Below are positions 5,768-39,230 of a stretch of 44,121 bases of DNA, in pieces. The position numbers and the translations under genes are program-made. Each line of letters opens with the position of its first letter. The stretch's first letter is position 1. The notes under the pieces were generated by a model. That model was not told the origin of the DNA, searched no databases, and worked only from the letters and a program-made list of their open reading frames with translations. The stretch lies in the NCBI GenBank assembly GCA_944376295.1, contig CALWCE010000016.1:1-44121 (forward strand), given 5' to 3'. This DNA comes from an uncultured Clostridia bacterium (GTDB lineage: Bacteria > Bacillota > Clostridia > Christensenellales > Borkfalkiaceae).

Positions 5768-6823
5768 TTACTCCAAAAAGTCCTTGAGCTTGCGGCTGCG
5801 GCTGGGGTGACGGAGCTTACGCAGCGCCTTCGCCTCGATCTGGCGGATGCGCTCACGGGTGACGTTGAATTCCTTGCCCACTTCTTCGAGGGTGCGCGGC
5901 TTTCCGTCGTCGATGCCGTAGCGAAGGCGCAGCACCTTCTCTTCGCGGGGGGTGAGCGTATCGAGCACGTTCAAAAGCTGCTCTTTGAGCATGATGAAGG
6001 AGACGGAATCGCTGGGCGTCTGCGTCTTATCGTCTTCGATGAAGTCGCCGAGGTGCGAATCTTCCTCCTCGCCGATGGGCGTTTCCAAAGAGACGGGGTC
6101 CTGGGCGATCTTCTGGATCTCCCTCACGCGCGCCACGTCGACGTCCATCGCCGCGGCGATCTCTTCGGGCGTGGGCTCGCGGCCGTTCTCCTGCAAAAGG
6201 ATGCGCGAGACGCGGGTGAGCTTGTTGATGGTCTCCACCATGTGCACGGGGATGCGGATGGTGCGCGCCTGATCGGCAATGGCGCGGGTGATGGACTGAC
6301 GGATCCACCACGTCGCGTACGTCGAGAATTTGAACCCCTTCTGATAGTCGAACTTTTCCACCGCCTTCATGAGGCCGAGGTTGCCTTCCTGGATGAGATC
6401 CAAAAAGAGCATCCCGCGCCCCACATAGCGCTTGGCAATGGAGACGACGAGGCGCAGGTTGGCTTCCGAAAGGCGCTTCTTCGCCGCTTCATCCCCCTCC
6501 TGCATCCTGCGGGCGAGCTCCACTTCCTCGTCGCCCGAAAGAAGGGGCACCCTGCCGATGTCCTTTAAATACATCTTAACGGGGTCGTCGAGCCCGATAT
6601 CCGAAAGGGCCTGTTCGAAGAGCTCCCTGTCGCGCTCGTCTTCGTCGAAGATCTGGATGCCCTGTTCGGGGAGCGCCTTATAGATCTGCTCGATCTGGTT
6701 GGGGCCGAGATCGTACTTTTCGAGCACGTCGCAGAGCGCGTTCGTCGAGACGCTGCCCTTCATCTTGTAGGCGGCGACGAGCCCTTCGACGATCTCAGTT
6801 ACCTTCTGTTCCGATTCCACCAT
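5768..6823 (-). CDS. rpoD: Primary sigma factor of RNA polymerase (SigA/RpoD)
   Basis: Housekeeping sigma factor. The 351-residue protein has a short region 1.1, then region 1.2 ([11 protein letters not shown]), region 2 with [17 protein letters not shown], region 3, and region 4 ending in [20 protein letters not shown] and KLKDFLE. I prefer the ATG at 6821-6823, preceded by GGAGG with ten-base spacing. The frame is open for 45 more codons to an ATG at 6956-6958 that overlaps the dnaG stop (ATGA) but lacks a ribosome binding site. The many TTGACA/TATAAT promoters in this window are consistent with this sigma. Confidence 0.96.
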
Positions 6824-6954
6824 GTGACTTTTTCCTCCGTTCCCCCGCATAGGGGGCGTTTCATGAACGATTTTCCTGTATCTTTCCGCAGCGCGGCTTA
6901 CGCCGCGGTCAAACGCTGATTTGCTTTGTCCGCCTCGGGGCGGCGCTTCCCTGC

Positions 6955-8724
6955 TCATTTGAGCAGCCCGAGCTTTTTGGTGAGCGCATTGATGCGGGAA
7001 AGCATCTCCCGCTTTTCCTCGGGGCTTGCCGCCGTTTCGAAGCGCGAACGGTAGGCGGCGATCTCGCCGCGGATGCCGCGCTCCTTCAGAAGGCGCAGGC
7101 TGTCTGCAAAATACCGCGCGGCGCGCTCGCCCTCCAACGTGTCCCCGAGGTCGAGATCGAGCACTTCGGAAAGTTCCCCTTCCGAGCTCATCTCGTCGAA
7201 GAGCCCGCTCGGGCGGATGTGCCCTTCGCGTCTTCCGCGCTCAATGAAGTCTGCGATCGCGGTGAGCTCTTCGCTCGAAAAGCGGATGTCCGAAAGATCG
7301 CAGTCCCTTGCATAGGGCTTGTCGAAGAGGCAGGCGGCGAGGATGAAGCGCTCCGCCTTCCTGTCCCCCGCGGCGCCGTCTTCCTTGCGGGAAGGCTCGC
7401 TCTCTTTGGGGGCGGCGGGCTTTGGCGACGCTTCGAGGTCGCGCTGCAAGGCGCCGATGCTCACGTCCGCCTCTTCCGAGATACGCTTTAAGAGCTGTTC
7501 GCGTTCGGTGGCGCTCTCCGCCTCCCGCACGATCTGAAGGGCGTCGCGCACATAGTCGCGCCGCTCGTCCGAACGGGAAAGATCGTACTTCGACTTTGCC
7601 GCGTGGATGCGGAAATCGATGAGCGGCATCGCACGGTCGAGGCACGCCTGATACGCCGCCGCGCCCTGCTTTTGGATGACGTCGTCGGGGTCGAGCCCGT
7701 CGGGAAGGGGCACGACGCGCACCTTGAGCCCTTCCTGCTTCATGATGTCGAGCCCGCGAAGATTGGCTTTCTGCCCCGCGAAGTCGCCGTCGTAGCTGAT
7801 GAAGACGTCGTCCGCATACCGCTTGCAAAGGCGCGCCTGGTCTTTGGTGAGCGAAGTGCCCATGCTCGCGACGACGTTACAAAAACCCGCCTGCGCCAGC
7901 GAGATGGCGTCCATATAGCCCTCGACCATGATGAGCGAGTTGAGCCCGCCCGCGCGCCGCAGCTTTTTGACCTGATTGAGATTGAAGAGGGTGCGGCTCT
8001 TGTTGAAGAGCACCGTCTCGCGCGTGTTCTTGTATTTGGCGCGGTCGGACTTTTCGAGAAGGCGCCCACCGAAGGCGATGACCTGATCCATCTGATCGAT
8101 GATGGGCACGATGAGCCTGCCCGCGAGCGAATCGTACAGGCGGCCGTTGGTCTCCGAACAGGCGCCGCTTTCGAGGCATTCCTCCCGCGTATAGCCGCGG
8201 TCCAACAAAAATTCAGGGAGCGACCCGAAATCAAGCGAAGCGCCGAGCCCGAACTTCTTCATAACGGTGGGCGAAAGCCCCCGCTTGGCGGTGTAAGCAA
8301 GATGCGCCTGCGCCTGCCCCGAATAGAGGTTGGAAAGATAGAACCGCGCCGTATCGCGCATGAGAAGGTGCAGCCTGTCGAGCTTCTTCTTGCGGCGGGC
8401 GGACTCCTCTGCCGCCTTATCGTCGTAAGCGGGGACTTGAAGCCCCGCGCGCGCCGCCAAAATTTCCACCGCCTGACGGAAGTCGACGTTCTCGTACCCT
8501 TTGATGAAGCCGATGACGTCGCCCGAAACGCCGCAGCCGAAACAGTGATAGTACCCGTCCCCCGCATTGACGGCAAAAGAGGGCGTCTTCTCGTGATGGA
8601 AGGGGCAGCACGCCCAATAGGTGTAGCCCCTGCGCTCGAGCTTAATATAGGAGCCGATGACTTCGACGATGTCGTTCTTTTGTTTCAACTCCTGCATGAA
8701 CTCGGGCGGATACATGTTCTTCAT
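6955..8724 (-). CDS. dnaG: DNA primase
   Basis: Synthesises RNA primers for replication. In this 589-residue protein the CHC2 zinc finger uses Cys40, His43, Cys61 and Cys64. The primase core follows, then TOPRIM with [14 protein letters not shown] at about residues 260-275, and a helical C-terminal region that should bind the replicative helicase. The ATG at 8722-8724 is preceded by GGAGG; an upstream in-frame start lies inside dgt. The stop lies 131 bases before the preferred rpoD start. Confidence 0.96.
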
Positions 8725-8737
8725 CCCCTGCCCTCCT

Positions 8738-9730
8738 TCATACGCTCCCCTCACGCGGCACGAACAGCCGCTTGAACGTGTTGATCGCATAGCGGTCGGT
8801 CATGGACGAGAGATAATCGGAGACCGCACGCTCGACGCCGTCGCGTTCGGCAAGCGCCGTATAGACGGGCGGCATTTCAGAAAAATGTTTTACAAAATAT
8901 TCAAAGAGTGCGGTGAGCATGCGTTCGGCGCTCTCCTGGATGAGCTTGTTGGCGCGCTCATAGACGTGTTCGAACATAAAGGCGCGGAGCTCGTCCAAAG
9001 CCGCCTGTTTTTCCTCGCTCATGCGCACATAGGGCTTACCGTAAGATTCTTCGTAAATATCAAGGACGGCGGTGTTGATGCGCGCGGAGGTATCCCGCCC
9101 GAAGATGCGCGTCGCGCTCTTGGGGAGCTCGTCGGGCGAAAGGAAGCCCGCGCGCACCGAGTCTTCGATGTCGTGATTGATATAGGCGATGCGGTCGGCA
9201 AGGGAGACGACCATGCCTTCGAGCGTTGCGGGGTTGCCGCTCTTCGTGTGGTTGAGGATGCCGTCCCTCACTTCGAAGGTGAGATTGAGCCCCCTCCCGT
9301 CCTTTTCGAGCACGTCGACGACGCGAAGGGACTGTTCGCTGTGGCGGAAGCCGCCGCTTGTAAGGCGGCTCAAAACGCGCTCCCCCACATGCCCGAAGGG
9401 GGTGTGCCCGAGGTCGTGCCCGAGCGCGATGGCCTCCGCAAGATCTTCGTTGAGGGCGAGGCACCTTGCGGCGGAACGGGCGATCTGCGAAACGTCGAGC
9501 GTGTGCGTGAGACGGGACATATAGTGGTCGCCGTCGGGCGCGTAAAAGACCTGCGTCTTATTTTTGAGACGCAGGAACGCCTTGGAATAGATGATCCTGT
9601 CGCGGTCCCTCTGAAAGTCGGTGCGCATGGGGCACGGAGCTTCCTCGCGCGCTCTGCCGCGGCTTTTTATGGACTTTTGCGCATAGGGAGAGAGGAACAG
9701 GTCTTCTTTTTCGTACGTTTTCTCTTTCAT
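8738..9730 (-). CDS. dgt: Deoxyguanosinetriphosphate triphosphohydrolase-like HD protein
   Basis: HD-domain dNTP triphosphohydrolase, predicted to convert dGTP/dNTPs to deoxynucleosides plus tripolyphosphate and so to control dNTP pools. In this 330-residue protein RDRDRIIYSKAFLRLKNKTQV and RLTHTLDVSQ supply the first metal ligand, and GHDLGHTPFGHVGE carries the HD pair. This is the clostridial dgt type that commonly precedes dnaG. The ATG at 9728-9730 has only weak Shine-Dalgarno similarity. It is first in the dnaG-rpoD operon and lies behind an unusual array of dyads (9817-9930). Confidence 0.9.
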   Translation of the reverse strand: MKEKTYEKEDLFLSPYAQKSIKSRGRAREEAPCPMRTDFQRDRDRIIYSKAFLRLKNKTQVFYAPDGDHYMSRLTHTLDVSQIARSAARCLALNEDLAEAIALGHDLGHTPFGHVGERVLSRLTSGGFRHSEQSLRVVDVLEKDGRGLNLTFEVRDGILNHTKSGNPATLEGMVVSLADRIAYINHDIEDSVRAGFLSPDELPKSATRIFGRDTSARINTAVLDIYEESYGKPYVRMSEEKQAALDELRAFMFEHVYERANKLIQESAERMLTALFEYFVKHFSEMPPVYTALAERDGVERAVSDYLSSMTDRYAINTFKRLFVPREGSV

Positions 9731-16774: not shown

Positions 16775-17542
16775 ATGACCCATTCCGCATCCGCACAAAC
16801 GAGAAAACGCGTTCTGATCGTCTCGATGGCAGTCTGCGCGCTCATCCTCATCGGCGGCATCGTCTTCACCGTCTGCATGTACTCGGGCGGCGACTTTGCA
16901 CGGGGAGAGCTTATGCGCCGCCTGTGGTACGCCGTACTCTGCATCGCCATGATCGCCGCCATTTTTTTGGTGGAGCTTTTGTTCCGCATCCGCTTCCCGC
17001 TCGCCCTCGAAGTCTCCCTCATGGCGTTCGCCGTCGCCGCGCTGTGCGGCGGAAACTTATACGGGCTCTACGGCTATGTCCCCTTCTGGGATAAGCTGCT
17101 GCACACGCTGAGCGGCCCGCTCTTTTCCATCGTGGGGCTCTCCTTCGGGGCGCTGCTTTTAAAAGACATGCTCGAAGGCGTAGGGAAGGCGATCGCCGTC
17201 GCCCTGTTCGCCTTCCTCTTTTCGCTCGCCGTGGGATATTTGTGGGAGGTCTTCGAATACTCCGTCGACAGCCTGATGCCGGGCGGCTACAACAACCAGC
17301 GCTGGCAGAACGGCGTCGTGGGGCAGCTCGAAAACGGGAATTGGGAGGTGACCGAGCCGCGCGGAAGCGGTCTTATCGACACGATGAGCGATCTCATCTG
17401 CAATCTTGTAGGTACCCTCTGCATCCTCGTGCCCGTCCTCGTCCTCTTTGTCAGGAAGCCTTCGCGCGCCGGGCTGTTCGCCCTCGAACGCCGCCAAAAG
17501 CGCACAAAAAAAGCCCGCCCCTCACCCGAGGAACGGGAATAA
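16775..17542 (+). CDS. YjdF/DUF2238-like integral membrane protein
   Basis: The 255-residue protein has about six hydrophobic segments (roughly residues 12-32, 47-67, 72-92, 102-125, 132-155 and 215-240) and a basic C-terminus. Conserved polar motifs WDKLLHTLSG, WEVFEYSVDS and DTMSDL match the DUF2238/YjdF family, whose function is not established. The ATG at 16775 follows GGGAG and a near-perfect promoter; the frame is open upstream, but those starts precede the promoter. It is an isolated monocistronic gene on the opposite strand to its neighbours, ended by a strong terminator. Confidence 0.8.
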   Translation: MTHSASAQTRKRVLIVSMAVCALILIGGIVFTVCMYSGGDFARGELMRRLWYAVLCIAMIAAIFLVELLFRIRFPLALEVSLMAFAVAALCGGNLYGLYGYVPFWDKLLHTLSGPLFSIVGLSFGALLLKDMLEGVGKAIAVALFAFLFSLAVGYLWEVFEYSVDSLMPGGYNNQRWQNGVVGQLENGNWEVTEPRGSGLIDTMSDLICNLVGTLCILVPVLVLFVRKPSRAGLFALERRQKRTKKARPSPEERE

Positions 17543-17558
17543 ACGCCGAAACGTTTGC

Positions 17559-17597
17559 GGCGCAGCCCCTCACCCGAGGAGCTGCGCCAATTTTTTT
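17559..17597 (+). terminator. Rho-independent terminator of the YjdF-like gene
   Basis: GGCGCAGC (17559-17566) pairs with GCTGCGCC (17581-17588), with an inner CCTC/GAGG stem, followed by AATTTTTTT. It overlaps the last codons of the convergent phosphatase gene, so one sequence serves both as terminator and as coding DNA. Confidence 0.85.
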
Positions 17598-18394
17598 GCG
17601 ACGCCGTCCTCCTCGTTGCTGCCGATGACCGCCGTCGCCCGCTCTTTTAAGGAAGGCACGGCGTTGGAAACGGCATAGCTCTCGTCGGCAACTTCGAAGA
17701 GGGGGATGTCGTTCTCCGCATCGCCGAAGACGACCAGCTTTTGCGCGCCCAGCCGCGCTTTGAGCGCAAGGGCGGCGGAGGCCTTGCTCACGTCCTTTTT
17801 GACGACTTCCAGCCACTGCGCTTTGAGGTAGATGTCGGGCGCGAAGAAGCAGCGGTAGCGGGCGCGGAGCGCCTCACAGACGGGCAGAAGCTTTTCCTTT
17901 TCCCCGAGGCAGGCAAAATAGAAGACGTCGCCGTCCAGAATGCCGTCGGCGGAGAAAAGTTCGCGGGCGCGCTCGCTGCCCGCCGCGCTTCCCGTGCGCG
18001 TTGCGATGAACGCCCGCTGCGCCTCCCCGCTGCGCTCCCAAAAGTAGGAAAAACGGTTCTTGCCAGCAAGGAAGGAGTAGGTGACGGGGAACAGCCCGTT
18101 CGCAAGAAACGCCGCCAAAATTTCCCCCTTTTCCGCCTCGGAGAAGCGAGCGACAGAGAGCGGCTTTTTCTGCACGGGGTCGGAGACGACCGCGCCGTTG
18201 TGCAGGATGACGGGATCGGAAAAGCGGATGCCGCGCGTGACGGCGGAAGAGGTTTCCAGCGAGCGCGCCGTGGCATAGGAGATGTGCGCGCCTTTTTCAA
18301 GGAGCGCGTTGAGCGTCTCTCTCGTCCGCTCGCTCACCGTCTGCGCGGGCGAGAGCAGCGTGCCGTCGAGATCGGCAAGATAGAGGGTGAGCAT
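17570..18394 (-). CDS. Cof-type HAD phosphatase
   Basis: The 274-residue HAD-superfamily subclass IIB hydrolase has nucleophile motif DLDGTLL (about residues 8-14), a motif II threonine/serine in YATARS, Lys in motif III (KKDVSK, about 205) and GDAENDIPLFEVA (about 226-238). The cap is of the Cof type. Likely substrates are sugar phosphates or flavin/pyridoxal phosphates, not predictable further. AGGAG lies eight bases before the ATG at 18392-18394. Confidence 0.88.
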   Translation of the reverse strand: MLTLYLADLDGTLLSPAQTVSERTRETLNALLEKGAHISYATARSLETSSAVTRGIRFSDPVILHNGAVVSDPVQKKPLSVARFSEAEKGEILAAFLANGLFPVTYSFLAGKNRFSYFWERSGEAQRAFIATRTGSAAGSERARELFSADGILDGDVFYFACLGEKEKLLPVCEALRARYRCFFAPDIYLKAQWLEVVKKDVSKASAALALKARLGAQKLVVFGDAENDIPLFEVADESYAVSNAVPSLKERATAVIGSNEEDGVAKKLAQLLG

Positions 18395-28838: not shown

Positions 28839-30014
28839 TTATTCCTCCGTGCCTTCCTGAGGCGCTTCGGCTTCCGCCGCTTCCGCAGGAACAGCGGGCT
28901 CTTCGGCTTCGGCGGCAGTTTCGAGCGCCGCGGAGAGCGCTTCCTGCGCTTCCTTCGCCTGCTGCTCCAGCTTGGCGGCGACAGACTCGCTCTTGACGTC
29001 GATCTTCCAGCCCGTGAGGCGCGCAGCCAGGCGGGCGTTCTGCCCGTCGCGGCCGATGGCGAGGGAGAGCTTGTCGTCGGGCACGACGGCGATCGCCGAC
29101 TTCTCGCCCGTCTGCGTCACCGAAACGACGGTCGCGGGAGAGAGCGCCTTGGCGATGAATTCGAGGGGATTTTCGCTCCAGAGGATGATATCCACCTTCT
29201 CGCCGCCCAGCTCCTGTACGACGGCGTTGACGCGCGCGCCCTTGTTGCCGACGCACGCGCCGACTGCGTCCACGCGCGCATCTTCGGAAGCGATCGCCAT
29301 CTTGGTTCTGTGGCCCGCCTCGCGGGAGATGGACTTGATGACCACCGTGCCCTGTTTTATTTCGGGCACTTCCTCTTCGAAAAGGCGCTTGACGAGCCCG
29401 GGCGCCGTGCGCGAGACGAGCACCTGCGCATTCCTGCCGCCGCTTCTCACGCGCTTGACGAACACCTTGATGCGGTCGCCCGCTTCGTATTTTTCGCCGG
29501 GGACCTGATCCTGCGGGAGCATGAGCCCCTCGATCTGCCCCTTGCCGAGCTCGACGTAGACGTTCTTCATGTCGATCTTGCGGACGAGCCCGCTCATGAG
29601 TTCGCCCTCTTTATCGGAAAATTCGCTGAGCGTGTTGTCGCGCTCCGTCTCGTGGATCTTCTGCAGAATGACCTGCTTTGCGGTCTGCGCGGCGATGCGC
29701 GTGAAATCTTTGGGGACGAACTCCTCGGAAAGGACGTCGCCTACCTTGGCGGATTTTTTGATCTTGAGCGCCTCTTCGAGGGTGATCTCCCCTTCCTGCG
29801 CCTCTTCGCTGTCGACGACGACGTGCGTCAGGAAGAACCGCAGCGTTCCCTTTTCCTCGTCCGCGCGCACTTCGACATTGCCCGTTTCGCCCTCGAACTG
29901 CTTCTTATAGGCAGAGGCGAGCGCCGCAGAGAGCGCATCGAGGAACACCTGTTCGCTGATGCCCTTTTCCCGTTCCAGATCGGCAAGCGCCGCAAAGAAA
30001 TCTTTATTGATCAT
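28839..30014 (-). CDS. nusA: Transcription termination/antitermination factor NusA
   Basis: Modulates pausing and termination by RNA polymerase. In this 391-residue protein the N-terminal polymerase-binding domain is followed by an S1 domain (LVRKIDMKNVYVELGKGQ), KH1 (VGACVGNKGARVNAV) and KH2 (AIGRDGQNARLAARLTG). An Ala/Glu-rich tail of about 45 residues replaces the acidic repeats of enterobacterial NusA, as in other Gram-positives. AAGGAG precedes the ATG at 30012-30014. Confidence 0.96.
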   Translation of the reverse strand: MINKDFFAALADLEREKGISEQVFLDALSAALASAYKKQFEGETGNVEVRADEEKGTLRFFLTHVVVDSEEAQEGEITLEEALKIKKSAKVGDVLSEEFVPKDFTRIAAQTAKQVILQKIHETERDNTLSEFSDKEGELMSGLVRKIDMKNVYVELGKGQIEGLMLPQDQVPGEKYEAGDRIKVFVKRVRSGGRNAQVLVSRTAPGLVKRLFEEEVPEIKQGTVVIKSISREAGHRTKMAIASEDARVDAVGACVGNKGARVNAVVQELGGEKVDIILWSENPLEFIAKALSPATVVSVTQTGEKSAIAVVPDDKLSLAIGRDGQNARLAARLTGWKIDVKSESVAAKLEQQAKEAQEALSAALETAAEAEEPAVPAEAAEAEAPQEGTEE

Positions 30015-30060: not shown

Positions 30061-30516
30061 TCAGACTTCGATATAGAGGCAGACTTTGGCAGCCTTTTCC
30101 CGTTCGAAGGTGCGCTCGCCCTTGTCCGTTAAAATGGTGAAGGTCTTTTCGTCGAAGGATACAAGCTCCCCTTCATATTCCTTCTTCCCGTCGACGGGCG
30201 CATAGAGGCGCACTTCCACCTTCTCGTGCAGCCGCCGCGCAAAGTCGCGGTCGGTCTTGATGGGCCTGTCGAGCCCCAGAGAAGAGCAGGTGAGCGTGTA
30301 CGCCGCCCCGAAGGTGGGGTCGATGTCGTCAAGGAGCGCGTCCGCCGCACGGTGGAAGCGTTCGCACATATCCATATCCACGCCGCCCTCCGCGTCGATC
30401 CAAAGGGTGAGCGAACGCTCGCGCATGTTCCACGCCCCGTCCACGAGCTCCACGCCCGCCTCTTCGGCGGCAGGGGCAAGCGCTTCCAGAACTTCGGCAA
30501 TGGGTTTGACTTTCAT
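30061..30516 (-). CDS. rimP: Ribosome maturation factor RimP
   Basis: Supports 30S assembly. The 151-residue protein shows the two-domain RimP pattern: GVELVDGAWNMRERSLTLWID, CERFHRAADALLDD, TLTCSSLGLDRPIKTDRDFARR and a C-terminal Sm-like barrel. The ATG at 30514-30516 is preceded by GGGAGG. It is the first gene of the nusA-infB operon, behind a consensus promoter. Confidence 0.94.
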   Translation of the reverse strand: MKVKPIAEVLEALAPAAEEAGVELVDGAWNMRERSLTLWIDAEGGVDMDMCERFHRAADALLDDIDPTFGAAYTLTCSSLGLDRPIKTDRDFARRLHEKVEVRLYAPVDGKKEYEGELVSFDEKTFTILTDKGERTFEREKAAKVCLYIEV

Positions 30517-30574
30517 TTCCGCCTCCCTTTTTAGGGGCAGCCGCTTCGCGCGCCGCATGCCCCATATAACAAAT

Positions 30575-30598
30575 TTGAGAGCGGTCGCCCGCTCTCAA
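30575..30598 (-). promoter_or_regulatory. Leader hairpin with GNRA tetraloop in the rimP-nusA 5' UTR
   Basis: A perfect 10-bp stem, TTGAGAGCGG/CCGCTCTCAA, closes a GCGA tetraloop on the minus-strand RNA, roughly 20 bases after the expected transcription start. No U-tract follows, so it is not a simple terminator. It might stabilise the mRNA or serve NusA/RNase autoregulation; that is inference. Confidence 0.6.
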
Positions 30599-30625
30599 TC
30601 TCTGTTTCATCGATCAAGTACCCCG

Positions 30626-30654
30626 ATTATAGCATGCTTTTTGAGAAATTGCAA
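30626..30654 (-). promoter_or_regulatory. Sigma-A promoter of the rimP-nusA-infB operon
   Basis: Minus-strand TTGCAA (30649-30654), 17-base spacer, perfect TATAAT (30626-30631), about 110 bases upstream of rimP. Confidence 0.85.
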
Positions 30655-30720
30655 GCGTTTTTTGCAAACTTGCGCATTTTCCTTGCTGTGCCGAACGGGA
30701 AACAGTGCCGCTCGTGCCCC

Positions 30721-32232
30721 TTATTTGGGGATGCCGCCGAGTTTGACGAGTTCCAGAAAAATTTTGGCGGTGACGAAGGCGTCGTCGAACGCCCGGTGAT
30801 GGCGGAAGGTGAAGCCGAAATGATCGGCGACCGTGTTGAGCTTATAATTGCTCAGCCGCAAAAGCTGCTGGGAAAGGGCGACGGTATCGAACGTCTTGGC
30901 GTCGAAAAGATACCCCTCCTGCTCGCCGTAATAGCGGATGAACTTGTAGTCGAACTGCACGTTGTGCCCGACGAGCGCGCAGCCTTCCGTGAACTTATAA
31001 AAGTCCGCCATGACCGTCTCCACGGGGGGCGCGCCGATGAGCATCTCGTCCTCGATGCCCGTGATGCCGACGATCTCTTCGGTGAGTTTGACGGGGCAGG
31101 CAACGAAGGAGGAGAACTTTTCCGCGATCTTCCCCCCTTCGATCTTGACGGCGCCCACCTCGATGATGCGGTCCATCGGCCCTGCGACGGGGTTGTTGTT
31201 GAGGCCCGTCGTTTCGAGGTCGAAGACGACGTATTTCCCCTCTTCGAACCCTGCGGGGAGCCTGGTCTCGCCGAAGAGCATCCCCTGCACGAGGTCTTCG
31301 CAGGGCTCGGGGAAGACGGCGGTATAGCGGGGCGGGGCGGGGCGGGAGGGCCGCTCTTCGAACACATAGTCCTTGGGCGGCGTACCGTAGTCCACCGCCT
31401 TGGGGCGGAAGGAAAGAGAGCCGTTGAAAAGCTCCATATCCCCCGTGAAGCACACGGAATCTCCCGCCTTCAAAGCGCGCACCTTTTCGAGCGTCGCCTT
31501 GCGCGTGAAATAGGAAAGGCGCAGCTGCCCGCTGCCGTCCGAAACGGTAAAGGAAAAGAAGGGTTTTTCCTTCTTGGTCATACGCTCTTCGAGGAAGGAG
31601 ATCGTGCCGCAGACGGTGACGCCCGTCTGCCCCGCCGCAAGATCGGCGATATACACGGCGAGTTTGGGGGAAGCGCCGTCGATGGGCGCGTAATTTTCGA
31701 TGCGGAAGACGCGGGGCGCGATGATGACCTCGGGCGGGGGCAGCGGCTCCTCGGGGGGCGCTTCCATCGTCTTTGGAACGGAGCGGCAGTCGCCCGTCCA
31801 CGCCCCGGGGAAGGTGCGGCAAAGGTCGGCGGCAACGCCGTCGAGGACGTTCCCCCGCACGAACTGCGTGCGTTCGGATTCGGCAACGCCGATCACGAAC
31901 CGCCCGCCCGCGCCGTCGAGCTCCACTTTGATGTCCTCGGGCGAGACGAACGCCGCCGCCGCGGGGAACTTGTTTTTCAGCACTTCCGCGATGCGCGCCC
32001 GCACGCCCTCTTCGCCCGGCACCGACTTGACGACGCGCACGTCTGCAAGACACCCTTCGGGCACGAACTCGTACGTCACGGCGCGCGCCGAGACGACGTC
32101 TTCCTCGTGATAGGTCTCGTCGGTGACAAGATGAAAGACCGCCGTATTTCCTTCGACGACGATCTTCTTCAGCACCGCGCGGGAGAGCGCGGGGATCTCG
32201 CGGATGCGCTCCAGATATTCACGGCTCTTCAT
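30721..32232 (-). CDS. PolC-derived 3'-5' exonuclease lacking PHP and polymerase domains
   Basis: This 503-residue protein occupies the usual polC position between ispG and rimP. Residues 1-150 form an N-terminal region placed like that of PolC, 204-281 an OB fold (VTVCGTISF to SFRPKAVDY), and 334-497 a DEDDh exonuclease: Asp338/Glu340 in FDLETTG, Asp428 in GHNVQFD, His479/Asp484 in HRAFDD. These align well with B. subtilis PolC from memory. PolC normally has its exonuclease inserted within PHP and followed by about 850 polymerase residues; both PHP halves and all later domains are missing. The catalytic residues are intact, so I infer an active proofreading or repair exonuclease rather than a decayed gene. 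GAGGTGAT precedes the ATG. Confidence 0.85.
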   Translation of the reverse strand: MKSREYLERIREIPALSRAVLKKIVVEGNTAVFHLVTDETYHEEDVVSARAVTYEFVPEGCLADVRVVKSVPGEEGVRARIAEVLKNKFPAAAAFVSPEDIKVELDGAGGRFVIGVAESERTQFVRGNVLDGVAADLCRTFPGAWTGDCRSVPKTMEAPPEEPLPPPEVIIAPRVFRIENYAPIDGASPKLAVYIADLAAGQTGVTVCGTISFLEERMTKKEKPFFSFTVSDGSGQLRLSYFTRKATLEKVRALKAGDSVCFTGDMELFNGSLSFRPKAVDYGTPPKDYVFEERPSRPAPPRYTAVFPEPCEDLVQGMLFGETRLPAGFEEGKYVVFDLETTGLNNNPVAGPMDRIIEVGAVKIEGGKIAEKFSSFVACPVKLTEEIVGITGIEDEMLIGAPPVETVMADFYKFTEGCALVGHNVQFDYKFIRYYGEQEGYLFDAKTFDTVALSQQLLRLSNYKLNTVADHFGFTFRHHRAFDDAFVTAKIFLELVKLGGIPK

Positions 32233-32236
32233 GCCA

Positions 32237-33280
32237 TCACCTCAACAACTCTTCGAGACGGGCAAAGAACGCCTGCTCCGCCTCGCGTGCGGGAACGCGC
32301 ACGTTCTCCTTGCCCTTTTCGAAGATGACGCAGTACTCCTGCCCGCCCGCGATCCCGAGATCGCACTCCTTTGCCTCGCCGGGACCGTTGACGACGCACC
32401 CCATGACGGCGACTTTACACTTTTTCCTGACGTTGTGCACGCGCGCGGAAACCTTGTCGGCAAGCGCCATGCAGTCGTAGCGGCAACGGCCGCAGGTGGG
32501 GCAGGAGACGACTTCGACGAACTCTTGTTCCAGCCCGCAGGCGCGCAGGATATCGTGCCCCGCATAGACTTCGCGCACGGGGTCGGCGGTGAGCGACACG
32601 CGGATGGTATCGCCGATGCCGCAAAGGAGGAGCGCGCCGATGCCGCAGCTGCTCTTGATGAGCCCCGCCCGCTCGGTGCCCGCCTCCGTCACCCCGACGT
32701 GGAGGGGATAATCCGTCCTCTTGGAAAGCAGTTCGTACGCTTCCACGGTGAGGGGAACGTCGGACGCCTTGACGGAGATGACGATGTCCTCAACGCCGTG
32801 CTTTTCCAAAATATTCACGTTATAAAGCGCGCTTTCAACGAGGGCGCGGGCGCTCCTTCCGTACTCTTTCAGAAAGTGCGGCTCGATGCTGCCCGTGTTC
32901 GCCCCCACGCGCACGGGGATATGATGCGCCTTCACGCAGTCCGCGACGAGGGCGATCTCCTTCTCCCCGCCGATGTTGCCCGGGTTGATGCGCAGCTTGT
33001 CCGCGCCCCCCTCCACCGCCATCACGGCAAGGCGGGGGGAAAAGTGGATGTCGGCGACGATCGGCACACGGACGCGCGCCTTGACGAGGGGCAGCGCTCT
33101 TGCGTCCTCCTCGTCGGAAACGGCGACGCGCACGATATCGCACCCTGCCTCCTGAAGGCGCAGGATCTGAGCGGCGCATGCTTCCACGCAGCCCGTCTTT
33201 TCGGTGGTCATGCTCTGGACGGAAACGGGCGCGCCGCCTCCGACCGCGACCCCGCCCACCATCACGCGTTTGGTCGGCAT
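32237..33280 (-). CDS. ispG: 4-hydroxy-3-methylbut-2-enyl diphosphate synthase (flavodoxin/ferredoxin)
   Basis: [4Fe-4S] enzyme of the MEP isoprenoid pathway. In this 347-residue protein VGGVAVGGGAPVSVQSMT at the start, VADIHFSPRLA, RINPGNIG, and the cluster cysteines in SCPTCGRC (about 258-265) and MGCVVNGPGEA (about 294-304) define the family. It sits directly upstream of the PolC-like gene, as ispG precedes polC in many Clostridia. dxr and rseP, often adjacent, are not here; nrdR takes their place. Confidence 0.95.
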   Translation of the reverse strand: MPTKRVMVGGVAVGGGAPVSVQSMTTEKTGCVEACAAQILRLQEAGCDIVRVAVSDEEDARALPLVKARVRVPIVADIHFSPRLAVMAVEGGADKLRINPGNIGGEKEIALVADCVKAHHIPVRVGANTGSIEPHFLKEYGRSARALVESALYNVNILEKHGVEDIVISVKASDVPLTVEAYELLSKRTDYPLHVGVTEAGTERAGLIKSSCGIGALLLCGIGDTIRVSLTADPVREVYAGHDILRACGLEQEFVEVVSCPTCGRCRYDCMALADKVSARVHNVRKKCKVAVMGCVVNGPGEAKECDLGIAGGQEYCVIFEKGKENVRVPAREAEQAFFARLEELLR

Positions 33281-37728: not shown

Positions 37729-39189
37729 TCATTTTTTTGTTGGTGACCCCTTTGAGGTGAAAGGCGAACTGTTCACTTCCTCAAAACTTACCGTCTTGCT
37801 GCGGCCCTTGTAGTTGTATGTAATGACGAAATGGTCGTCATACAGGTAAATACTGTTCACAAATCCGTCGATGAGCCGTTGCTTGCCCTCCTGCGTGGAG
37901 ATGTCTATCTTGCGGAAGTTGTAGAGAGCGAATAAGATTTGTTCCTTCGTCAGCACGGGATTGCGCGTCTGCGCCTCAAAGAGTTCAATTTCGAGATTGC
38001 GCTTGCGCTCCTCCAGCTCGTCCAGCGCCTTCTTCGTCGCGGAGGAATAGATGCCCTGCGCGATCGCCTCCACCAAGTTATTCAGCTTAGTCTCCACGCC
38101 CGTCAGCTGCGCTTGGATAGAGCTTTCCGCGCTGTCCTCCTGCAGCTGCAATTCATAGACGCGGTCTGCAAGTTCCTCGATGACCTCATCGCTTGCAAGC
38201 AGCTCCTTGATCTCGTCCAACACGAGTTCTTCCAACCATTCCTTTCGGACGGACTTCTTGTCGCACTTACTTTGCTTGGCATGATTGCACTTGTAGTAGC
38301 GGTATTGCCGCGCGGTGTGGCTGCTGCCGATGACGCCCGTCATCATTGCCCCGCATTTCCCGCAAAAGAGGCGCGTCGTGAGCAAGTAATCGTCCTCGCT
38401 TCTGTGCATGGCGGGGGCTTTTTTATTGCGTGCCATGCGCTCCTGCACGGCGTTGAAAGTTTCCTCATCGATAATGGCAGGCATAGCGTTCGGGAGGACG
38501 ATGTCGCCGAACTTATACTCGCCGATATACTTGCGGTTGGTGAGGATACGGAAGACGGCATTGTACTTCATCTCAAAGCCCTTGTGCCGGATGCCGCGCT
38601 CGTTGAGCAGTTTGACGATGTCATTGACGCGCATTCCGTCGAGATAGCGCGTGTAAATTTCACGGACGACGGGTGCGAGGGTCTCGTCGATCTGGTAATG
38701 GTCGGTGTCGTCCACATAGTAGCCGAAGGGCGGGCGCACGCCGTTGCTCTTGGCTTTGAGAGCGTTCTCCGTCATGCCGCGCTTGACCTTCTCGGAAAGC
38801 TCCGCCGAATAGAATTCTGCATAGCCCTCGAGGAGCGATTCGAGCAAGATGCCCTCCGCGCCCTGAGAGATAGTCTCTTTCGCGGAGATGACGCGCACGC
38901 CGTTCTTTTTGAGGACATTTTTATAGTAGGCGGAATCGTAGCGGTTGCGGGCAAAGCGGTCTAATTTCCAGACGAGGATGCAGTCGAAAGCGTGCTTATA
39001 GCTGTCCTTGATCATACGCTGGAATTCGGGGCGGTGGTCGGTCTTGGCAGACTGCGCCCTGTCGATGTAATTCCCGATGACCTCGATGCCATTGAAATTG
39101 GCATACTCCAAACACTCGCGGAGCTGCCCCTCGATACTTGCCTCATTCTGCTTTTCCGAACTGAATCGGGCGTATATTACGGCTTTCAT
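37729..39189 (-). CDS. Large serine recombinase
   Basis: The 486-residue site-specific recombinase has a resolvase domain with YARFSSEKQ (nucleophile Ser10 or Ser11) and VWKLDRFARNRYDS (about residues 70-84). The Recombinase domain follows (PPFGYYVDDTD, RILTNRKYIGEYK), then a zinc ribbon (CGKCGAMMTG...CNHAKQSKC) and a coiled coil (about 335-415). All expected domains are present, so it should be active. The ATG at 39187-39189 is nine bases after AAGGAGG. It lies 41 bases downstream of the unknown A+T-rich gene and probably shares the promoter at 42001-42029. Attachment sites could not be identified. Confidence 0.93.
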   Translation of the reverse strand: MKAVIYARFSSEKQNEASIEGQLRECLEYANFNGIEVIGNYIDRAQSAKTDHRPEFQRMIKDSYKHAFDCILVWKLDRFARNRYDSAYYKNVLKKNGVRVISAKETISQGAEGILLESLLEGYAEFYSAELSEKVKRGMTENALKAKSNGVRPPFGYYVDDTDHYQIDETLAPVVREIYTRYLDGMRVNDIVKLLNERGIRHKGFEMKYNAVFRILTNRKYIGEYKFGDIVLPNAMPAIIDEETFNAVQERMARNKKAPAMHRSEDDYLLTTRLFCGKCGAMMTGVIGSSHTARQYRYYKCNHAKQSKCDKKSVRKEWLEELVLDEIKELLASDEVIEELADRVYELQLQEDSAESSIQAQLTGVETKLNNLVEAIAQGIYSSATKKALDELEERKRNLEIELFEAQTRNPVLTKEQILFALYNFRKIDISTQEGKQRLIDGFVNSIYLYDDHFVITYNYKGRSKTVSFEEVNSSPFTSKGSPTKK

Positions 39190-39230
39190 TTGTTCATGCC
39201 TCCTTTTAATCAAGTGTTAAGGGAAATCCT

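Follow-up and report, generated by a model that had tools for sequence, protein, structure and literature searches.

The gene considered here lies in a window of 44,121 nucleotides, the whole stretch of DNA that was analysed (contig CALWCE010000016.1 of assembly GCA_944376295.1), from an uncultured Clostridia bacterium of the family Borkfalkiaceae, order Christensenellales. An open reading frame on the minus strand (32232-30721, ATG start, 503 residues) occupies the position of polC, and we call its product mini-PolC, as it corresponds to the N-terminal domain (NTD), OB fold and DEDDh exonuclease (Exo) of PolC with little else. Reading along the minus strand, the genes are nrdR, ispG, mini-PolC, rimP and nusA, followed by three more, placed from their reading frames, which we take from their sequences to be ylxR, an L7Ae-type gene and infB. 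A preliminary description of this DNA had recognized the order ispG-polC-rimP-nusA with the short gene in the polC slot, and comparison with sister families bears this out, as their full PolC genes sit in the same slot.

Within the protein, Pfam recognizes an OB fold (residues 205-275) and an RNase_T exonuclease (335-492), together with one sub-threshold exonuclease model. The two best NCBIfam models are PolC equivalogs, which match the exonuclease stretch only (329-497) with scores far below their whole-protein cut-offs; the specific epsilon equivalog cut-offs are also not reached (PRK05711, 72.1 against 196 bits; TIGR01406, 67.3 against 222.7 bits). All five catalytic residues of the DEDDh site are in place (D338, E340, D428, H479 and D484), as the preliminary description had stated, and the Pfam and NCBIfam scans and the profile alignment likewise agree with it that both PHP halves and the polymerase are missing. 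PHP-N is absent between the OB fold and Exo, and the protein stops after Exo, with neither a C-family polymerase core (PF07733, TIGR01405 cut-off), nor the C-terminal clamp motif QLSLF of PolC, nor a helicase part of the kind found in DinG and DnaQ-helicase proteins. The suggestion that the next 200 bases hold no polymerase remnant stood in substance, with no match there in searches of the genome with PF07733 and TIGR01405, but the gap to rimP is shorter than that. Coordinates are collected in Table 1.

Table 1. Features of the mini-PolC locus, in window coordinates.
Feature	Position	Strand	Basis
mini-PolC (reduced PolC) gene, polC locus	30721..32232	minus	Open reading frame, profile alignment, locus
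NTD, residues 1-158	31759..32232	minus	Two small alpha/beta domains
OB fold, residues 205-284	31381..31620	minus	PF01336, model strands, profile against 3f2b
Clamp-binding-type motif QGMLF, residues 316-320	31273..31287	minus	Position conservation, shuffle control, disorder in model
DEDDh 3'-5' exonuclease domain, residues 333-498	30739..31236	minus	Pfam, NCBIfam, PDB profile search
Gap from mini-PolC stop to rimP, 162 bp	30559..30720	.	Open reading frame coordinates
ispG, immediate upstream neighbour	32237..33280	minus	Family scan, locus comparison
rimP, immediate downstream neighbour	30061..30558	minus	Family scan, locus comparison
nusA, next downstream after rimP	28839..30014	minus	Family scan, locus comparison
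nrdR, upstream of ispG	33779-33282	minus	

Profile comparisons tie this architecture to PolC. A profile of 76 mini-PolC sequences aligned by hhalign with 30 full PolC proteins of the same order (E = 1.8e-79) is collinear with PolC over the NTD, OB fold and Exo, and the PHP-N segment (HLH..., ITDH...) appears on the PolC side only. When the PDB was searched with the mini-PolC profile, two PolC exonucleases came first (E = 1e-61 and 1.3e-61), with DinG (2e-39) and epsilon (2.7e-32) both well below them, and the OB stretch matched residues 8-112 of Geobacillus PolC (3f2b, E = 4.4e-11). The N-terminal region, which has no Pfam match, is linked to the PolC N-terminus by profile comparison of the NTD alone (96.9%, E = 1.3e-10, identity 11%). 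Its second small domain resembles type II KH folds, and the NTD model found no convincing full-length match in the PDB. The PolC NTD is reportedly related to domain V of tau, a domain that is not among the PDB matches listed for the NTD model, which is no evidence against the relation. In its pair of KH-like domains, its OB fold and its PolC-type DEDDh exonuclease, mini-PolC has the features of PolC, and by these sequence comparisons it is a PolC derivative stripped of PHP and polymerase; this ancestry is the strongest part of our reading. The central claim of the preliminary description, a 503-residue PolC reduced to NTD, OB fold and Exo at the polC locus, is thus upheld by the reading frame, the collinear alignment and the locus comparison.

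The reduced form is widespread. In the window's family, 147 of 151 genomes match mini-PolC, 142 of them at E <= 1.4e-60 and five only weakly (best matches at E = 1.7e-36 to 8.9e-11); the remaining four give no match. The occurrence of the same form in so many other genomes rules out an assembly artefact or a frameshifted polC, including the assembly break that the preliminary description had raised as a possible source of the short gene. In a sample of 200 genomes from the order, PolC over the cut-off is found in 69, spread over 17 families; genomes sampled from the other 16 families yielded none, and loci read in each of these families carry the short gene (f1, f3, f6, f8, f9, f10, f14, f16, f18, f19, f20, f24, f28, f29, f30 and f32). 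Two candidates of 450 and 499 residues (L101, L102) proved to be other DEDDh proteins and were removed from the counts. Across the class, a sample of 291 genomes gave, among the matches listed (to about E = 1e-66, with some families showing weak matches only), full-span matches in frames of ~510-600 residues in just 11 genomes, all of the window's order; the remaining listed matches cover exonuclease stretches, for the most part within frames of 1,300-1,600 residues. Most carriers are titled uncultured Clostridia, a named one being Candidatus Coproplasma stercoripullorum (L111), placed in Clostridia by NCBI taxonomy. In two genomes of genus g9 in f1 (G026:C4 and G074:C13), the mini-PolC match runs across one in-frame TAA in each. 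Elsewhere in the class, families f34, f38, f46, f55, f71 and f82 show weak matches only in most sampled genomes, and these may have no PolC or perhaps a PolC without Exo of the kind reported in PMC3919608.

Synteny in related genomes, which the preliminary description had proposed as a check, was compared for the two forms. All 30 family loci (L011-L040) have ispG next to mini-PolC, and 28 of them also have rimP next to it; the corresponding figures for 18 loci from the order (L083-L100) are 17 and 13. Of 30 full PolC loci of the same order (L053-L082), 27 have ispG alongside and 10 have rimP, within a flank of only 1.5 kb. Because these flanks are common to both forms, mini-PolC and full PolC share one slot.

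Trees of DnaE place the change in the history of the order. In an unrooted tree, one branch parts 29 rows with mini-PolC from 10 with full PolC, and when an outgroup of 12 rows from further families of the class is included, 22 mini rows form a single clade (Shimodaira-Hasegawa-like approximate likelihood ratio test, SH-aLRT, 100) that sits inside the PolC-bearing part of the order. These are quick trees with SH-aLRT support only, their rows are labelled mini or full by family rather than per genome, and fragments and near-copies are omitted (three rows from the unrooted tree and ten from the rooted one). As the mini clade is nested among PolC-bearing families, parsimony points to PolC having been reduced once and not regained in the sample; most simply, these sequences suggest that it was cut down once in an ancestor of the sixteen families. 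A long branch (0.31) subtends the mini clade and would be compatible with altered demands on DnaE. One row labelled full in these trees (L206) comes from G188, in which no PolC over the cut-off was found. That genome is 96% complete and belongs to a PolC-bearing family (f11), and it shows nothing more than an exonuclease match in a 307-residue frame (contig C28, near 17.8 kb), reflecting either a missing contig or a separate loss.

What synthesizes DNA in these bacteria? The window's genome (2,034,942 bases in 30 contigs, 93.59% complete) has a single PF07733 match, a DnaE of 1195 residues (L008 3617-7204), and no PolC over the TIGR01405 cut-off; all six TIGR01405 matches fall below it and comprise mini-PolC, three pieces of DnaE, a 182-residue exonuclease-only protein and one more exonuclease region. 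As judged by these searches, DnaE is the only replicative polymerase found in the genome. The PHP site of this DnaE is complete, with nine of nine residues (HHDHEHCDH), and the protein carries a QLSLF clamp motif; clostridial DnaE1 is described with both features (PMC3919608, PMC12926913), and the label DnaE1-type rests here on these signatures, not on a tree of DnaE1 and DnaE3. Across the lineage, all 40 readable rows, drawn from 38 genomes, keep the nine-residue PHP site intact (42 rows were read, L049 and L204 being cut by locus ends), as do 14 of 14 readable rows of a further set of 15. DnaE of this lineage, by the evidence of its sequence, therefore probably has proofreading of its own, and present evidence does not call for a second proofreader. 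We rejected the possibility that mini-PolC compensates, through its exonuclease, for a dead PHP site in DnaE, as that site is intact wherever it could be read. In one genome (G334:C116 ~17425-18282), ~290 residues, possibly an intein, are inserted in DnaE between positions matching residues 268 and 297 of the DnaE of the window's genome.

In place of PHP-N, mini-PolC has a linker, 36-60 residues long when counted between the alignment columns of residues 285 and 333, and this linker carries a conserved Q-x-x-hydrophobic-F/L motif, QGMLF in the window's protein, with Q316 conserved in >= 90% of alignment A1. Counts were made on 117 members non-redundant at 95%, of which 95 are catalytically intact and 22 dead. 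Among the intact members, a strict Qxx[LMI]F is present in 68 (shuffled mean 1.1, maximum 4) and a relaxed Qxx[LMIFV][FLMY] in 84 (shuffled mean 8, maximum 16). Full PolC shows the opposite arrangement: among the 57 of 79 proteins that could be mapped (22 were dropped with Exo start unmapped), a clamp-type motif is found in none within the 110 residues before Exo and in 44 within the last 130 residues. The motif matches the published clamp-binding consensus, given as QL[S/D]LF or QxxLF (PMC12309361), and thus mini-PolC has the feature expected of a sliding-clamp client, a QxxLF-type motif in an accessible segment. For the QLSLF motif of B. subtilis PolC, low-micromolar binding to the clamp is reported (PMC12309361). 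The linker motif of mini-PolC is disordered in the predicted model (residues 317-321 have a predicted local distance difference test score, pLDDT, below 50), which would fit a tethering motif, and we infer that this putative clamp-binding motif would bind the sliding clamp.

Taken together, we propose that mini-PolC is tethered to the clamp, where it serves DnaE as an accessory and second proofreader, in most cases catalytically active and sometimes a pseudonuclease, a reading of sequence data to which we give roughly two chances in three. The clamp-type motif suggests that mini-PolC rides the clamp with DnaE, and intact catalysis in 95 of the 117 members suggests proofreading in trans, as reported for the B. 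subtilis PolC exonuclease, which proofreads DnaE in a stable complex (PMC5627055). In the ancestor of the sixteen families, PolC would have been trimmed to NTD-OB-Exo while DnaE took over all synthesis, and the lost C-terminal clamp motif would have been replaced by one in the new linker. Mini-PolC could then ride the clamp beside DnaE, much like the epsilon subunit in E. coli. Upon misincorporation by DnaE, the DEDDh site could take up the frayed 3' end, alongside the PHP site of DnaE, and the NTD and OB fold could dock on DnaE, the clamp loader or DNA. The preliminary description had already pictured a stand-alone proofreader working with a DnaE-type polymerase; the polymerase part of that picture holds, as the sole C-family polymerase found is of DnaE type, but the stand-alone proofreading role is not established. 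New beyond that description are the clamp-type linker motif, the order-wide spread and the apparent single origin.

Several observations weigh against this proposal. First, the DEDDh site is dead in 22 of the 117 members, which contradicts a purely catalytic role, and the PHP site of DnaE is intact in every readable row. Second, the pentapeptide is no commoner than chance among these dead members (strict form in 0 of 22; relaxed form in 3, against 2.4 when shuffled); a different pattern, Q[LIMVT]x[LFM], takes its place in 19 of the 22 (1.9 when shuffled), a pattern chosen after inspecting these same members. Third, the motif counts carry no lineage weighting, and 11 of the 95 intact members, including f6 genus g23 (3/3) and f30 (1/1), lack even the relaxed motif. 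The f30 protein also has no profile match over the OB region; this protein (L254 in G179, 448 residues) has an intact DEDDh site and looks like a further reduced form. Fourth, searches with A1 found no mini-PolC in four sampled genomes of PolC-less families (G276, G221, G265 and G233, 62-88% complete), of which only G276 shows an exonuclease (190 residues), and searches with A3 found none in 3 of 37 genomes (G276, G300 and G239), G276 being missed in both. Finally, mini-PolC also scores above the cut-off of the broad epsilon-family domain model TIGR00573 (93.1 against 71.5 bits), and trees of the exonuclease alone root uncleanly, with DnaQ-like proteins falling among full PolC.

The dead members deserve closer attention. 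They comprise all 10 loci read in f16, three genera of f19 (g36, 8/8; g59, 1/1; g100, 1/1) and one genus of f32 (g98, 2/2), and intact relatives exist in f19 (g109) and in f32 (g77, g86 and g93). With three families affected, two of which have intact relatives, the nuclease was lost at least three times, if the families are natural groups. All 22 nevertheless keep a full-length gene beside ispG, and persistence of mini-PolC at the locus after destruction of the DEDDh site implies that catalysis is not its sole conserved role. Their linker motifs include QLTLGL, QIRFDM and QLSFAM, which resemble QLSLPL, the six-residue clamp motif of Hda (PMC12309361). We considered small DEDDh proteins of 192-212 residues as substitutes for the dead nuclease in f16, f19 and f32, an idea that is not supported, because they belong to different DnaQ groups and because the f16 group includes a protein (L219) from G223, a genome with an intact mini-PolC.

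These dead members speak for an alternative in which mini-PolC is mainly structural, a clamp- and DNA-binding platform made up of the NTD, OB fold and clamp motif that stabilizes DnaE on the clamp, with the PHP site of DnaE doing the proofreading and the exonuclease being secondary. A full-length gene beside ispG in lineages with a dead site, the Q-based linker motif in most of their proteins and the intact DnaE PHP site wherever it is readable in those lineages (12 rows) all favor this model. Against it, retention of the five catalytic residues in 95 of 117 members, over identities to the window's protein as low as 22% (A1), argues for selection on catalysis across most of the clade, and we regard a mainly structural role as unlikely. 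That sample was in part gathered through exonuclease matches: the first set, with 76 of 76 intact sites, came largely from such matches and is biased in this way, and 43 further loci came from a selection made by family, 9 of them with profile A1 and 34 with A3, a profile that contains dead members as well. In our preferred reading of a clamp-tethered second proofreader, as a clamp-type motif and the NTD-OB platform mostly persist in dead-nuclease members, a tethering role was probably kept beyond the nuclease; and nuclease loss in three families, together with the intact PHP site of DnaE, indicates that the exonuclease is probably an add-on open to loss, helpful but not indispensable.

Other explanations fare less well. 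Mini-PolC could be a repair or end-trimming exonuclease that acts off the fork, like ExoX, DinG or RNase T, with its PolC ancestry only a matter of history. The PolC NTD and OB fold, the polC locus and the clamp-type linker motif all point instead to the replisome, making such a role improbable. The chance arrival at this locus of a generic DnaQ-family exonuclease unrelated to PolC would accord with the TIGR00573 match and with the exonuclease tree in which DnaQ-like proteins fall among full PolC, a placement that is weakly supported and obtained with a poor outgroup. We reject this scenario as very improbable, given the collinear NTD-OB-Exo homology, PolC as the best profile match and the slot shared with PolC in sister families, although exonuclease-only trees leave the root unsettled. 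In the first such tree, the mini exonucleases require two changes, as exonuclease-only proteins of the family mix with them; in the second, the mini exonucleases and these proteins make up one side of a branch (SH-aLRT 99). The exonuclease-only proteins that join them (L009 2179-2727, minus strand, near 89.7 kb on contig C4 of the window's genome, G000; L216, L217, L220 and L222) are apparently offshoots of the mini-PolC exonuclease, and on visual inspection the 182-residue copy in G000 seems to lack the HxxxxD portion of its catalytic site. Finally, a full PolC, or the split PHP-polymerase half that the preliminary description had envisaged, might have been missed in a genome that is 93.6% complete and in 30 contigs, but searches of the genome, the family and the order lend this no support and make it extremely improbable, with no PolC over the cut-off in 13 genomes of the family or in sampled genomes of the 16 families, and with a PF07733 match in 97 of 101 family genomes but no second one in a PolC-length frame in any of the 101.

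Elsewhere in the window, two features stand apart from this system. A dnaG primase gene adjoins the gene for a primary sigma-70 factor (5768-8790, minus strand), a common pair, and a large serine recombinase with Resolvase, Recombinase and zinc-ribbon parts (37729-39213, minus strand) is a possible trace of a mobile element.

There are several broader implications. We think it slightly better than an even bet that once, in one clostridial order, PolC shed its polymerase and PHP domain, acquired a clamp motif at the resulting junction and was converted to a DnaE subunit resembling epsilon, and that three or more of the descendant lineages then lost the nuclease as well, so that their polC locus keeps a pseudonuclease platform bound to the clamp. 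Retention of the PolC front end in families without the PolC polymerase implies that the NTD, OB fold and exonuclease are valuable apart from that polymerase. The clade offers a direct test of what the poorly understood PolC N-terminus does, as this part persists here although PolC no longer synthesizes DNA and, in some or all members of three families, although the nuclease is lost as well. How replicative polymerases are swapped is an open question, and Timinskas et al. (PMC3919608) asked which of the two, PolC or DnaE1, copies the clostridial genome; this order offers a natural experiment, with sister families that have and lack the PolC polymerase. More practically, these bacteria are predicted from their gene content not to respond to drugs against the PolC polymerase such as ibezapolstat, and surveys that score polC by locus or exonuclease could misread genomes with mini-PolC.

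Mini-PolC can be compared with several known systems. PolC itself (E. faecium, 9QPC; G. kaustophilus, 3F2B) has the NTD, OB fold and DEDDh exonuclease in the same order, at a locus arranged as ispG-polC-rimP-nusA, but also has PHP-N, PHP-C, the polymerase core and a C-terminal QLSLF, in place of which mini-PolC has the clamp-type motif of its linker. Pol III epsilon (DnaQ) would offer the same arrangement, a separate DEDDh protein beside a DnaE-type polymerase with a predicted clamp motif. Unlike epsilon, mini-PolC carries the PolC NTD and OB fold in front and is closer to PolC by profile, and its clamp-type motif precedes the exonuclease, whereas that of epsilon follows it. At the level of titles and abstracts, the literature searched, with most subscription papers outside its reach, describes no polymerase-less PolC. 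A reciprocal case is known: PolC lacking the Exo insertion is reported in Clostridia and Negativicutes by Timinskas et al. (PMC3919608), also a clostridial PolC minus a module, in which the polymerase was kept and Exo lost. Non-canonical prokaryotic PolX proteins without polymerase activity act as exonucleases, as the title of that work has it (PMC9226535), and are likewise members of a polymerase family used as nucleases; they belong to family X, whereas mini-PolC lost the polymerase domain altogether. In B. subtilis, the same pair of activities, the PolC exonuclease and the DnaE polymerase, resides on different proteins, but there PolC is also the main polymerase and DnaE is described as lacking proofreading of its own (PMC5627055). 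Finally, according to a survey from 2026, most Clostridia have three ‘active’ proofreaders, the PHP domains of PolC and DnaE1 and the DnaQ domain of PolC (PMC12926913), of which the mini-PolC lineage would keep two.
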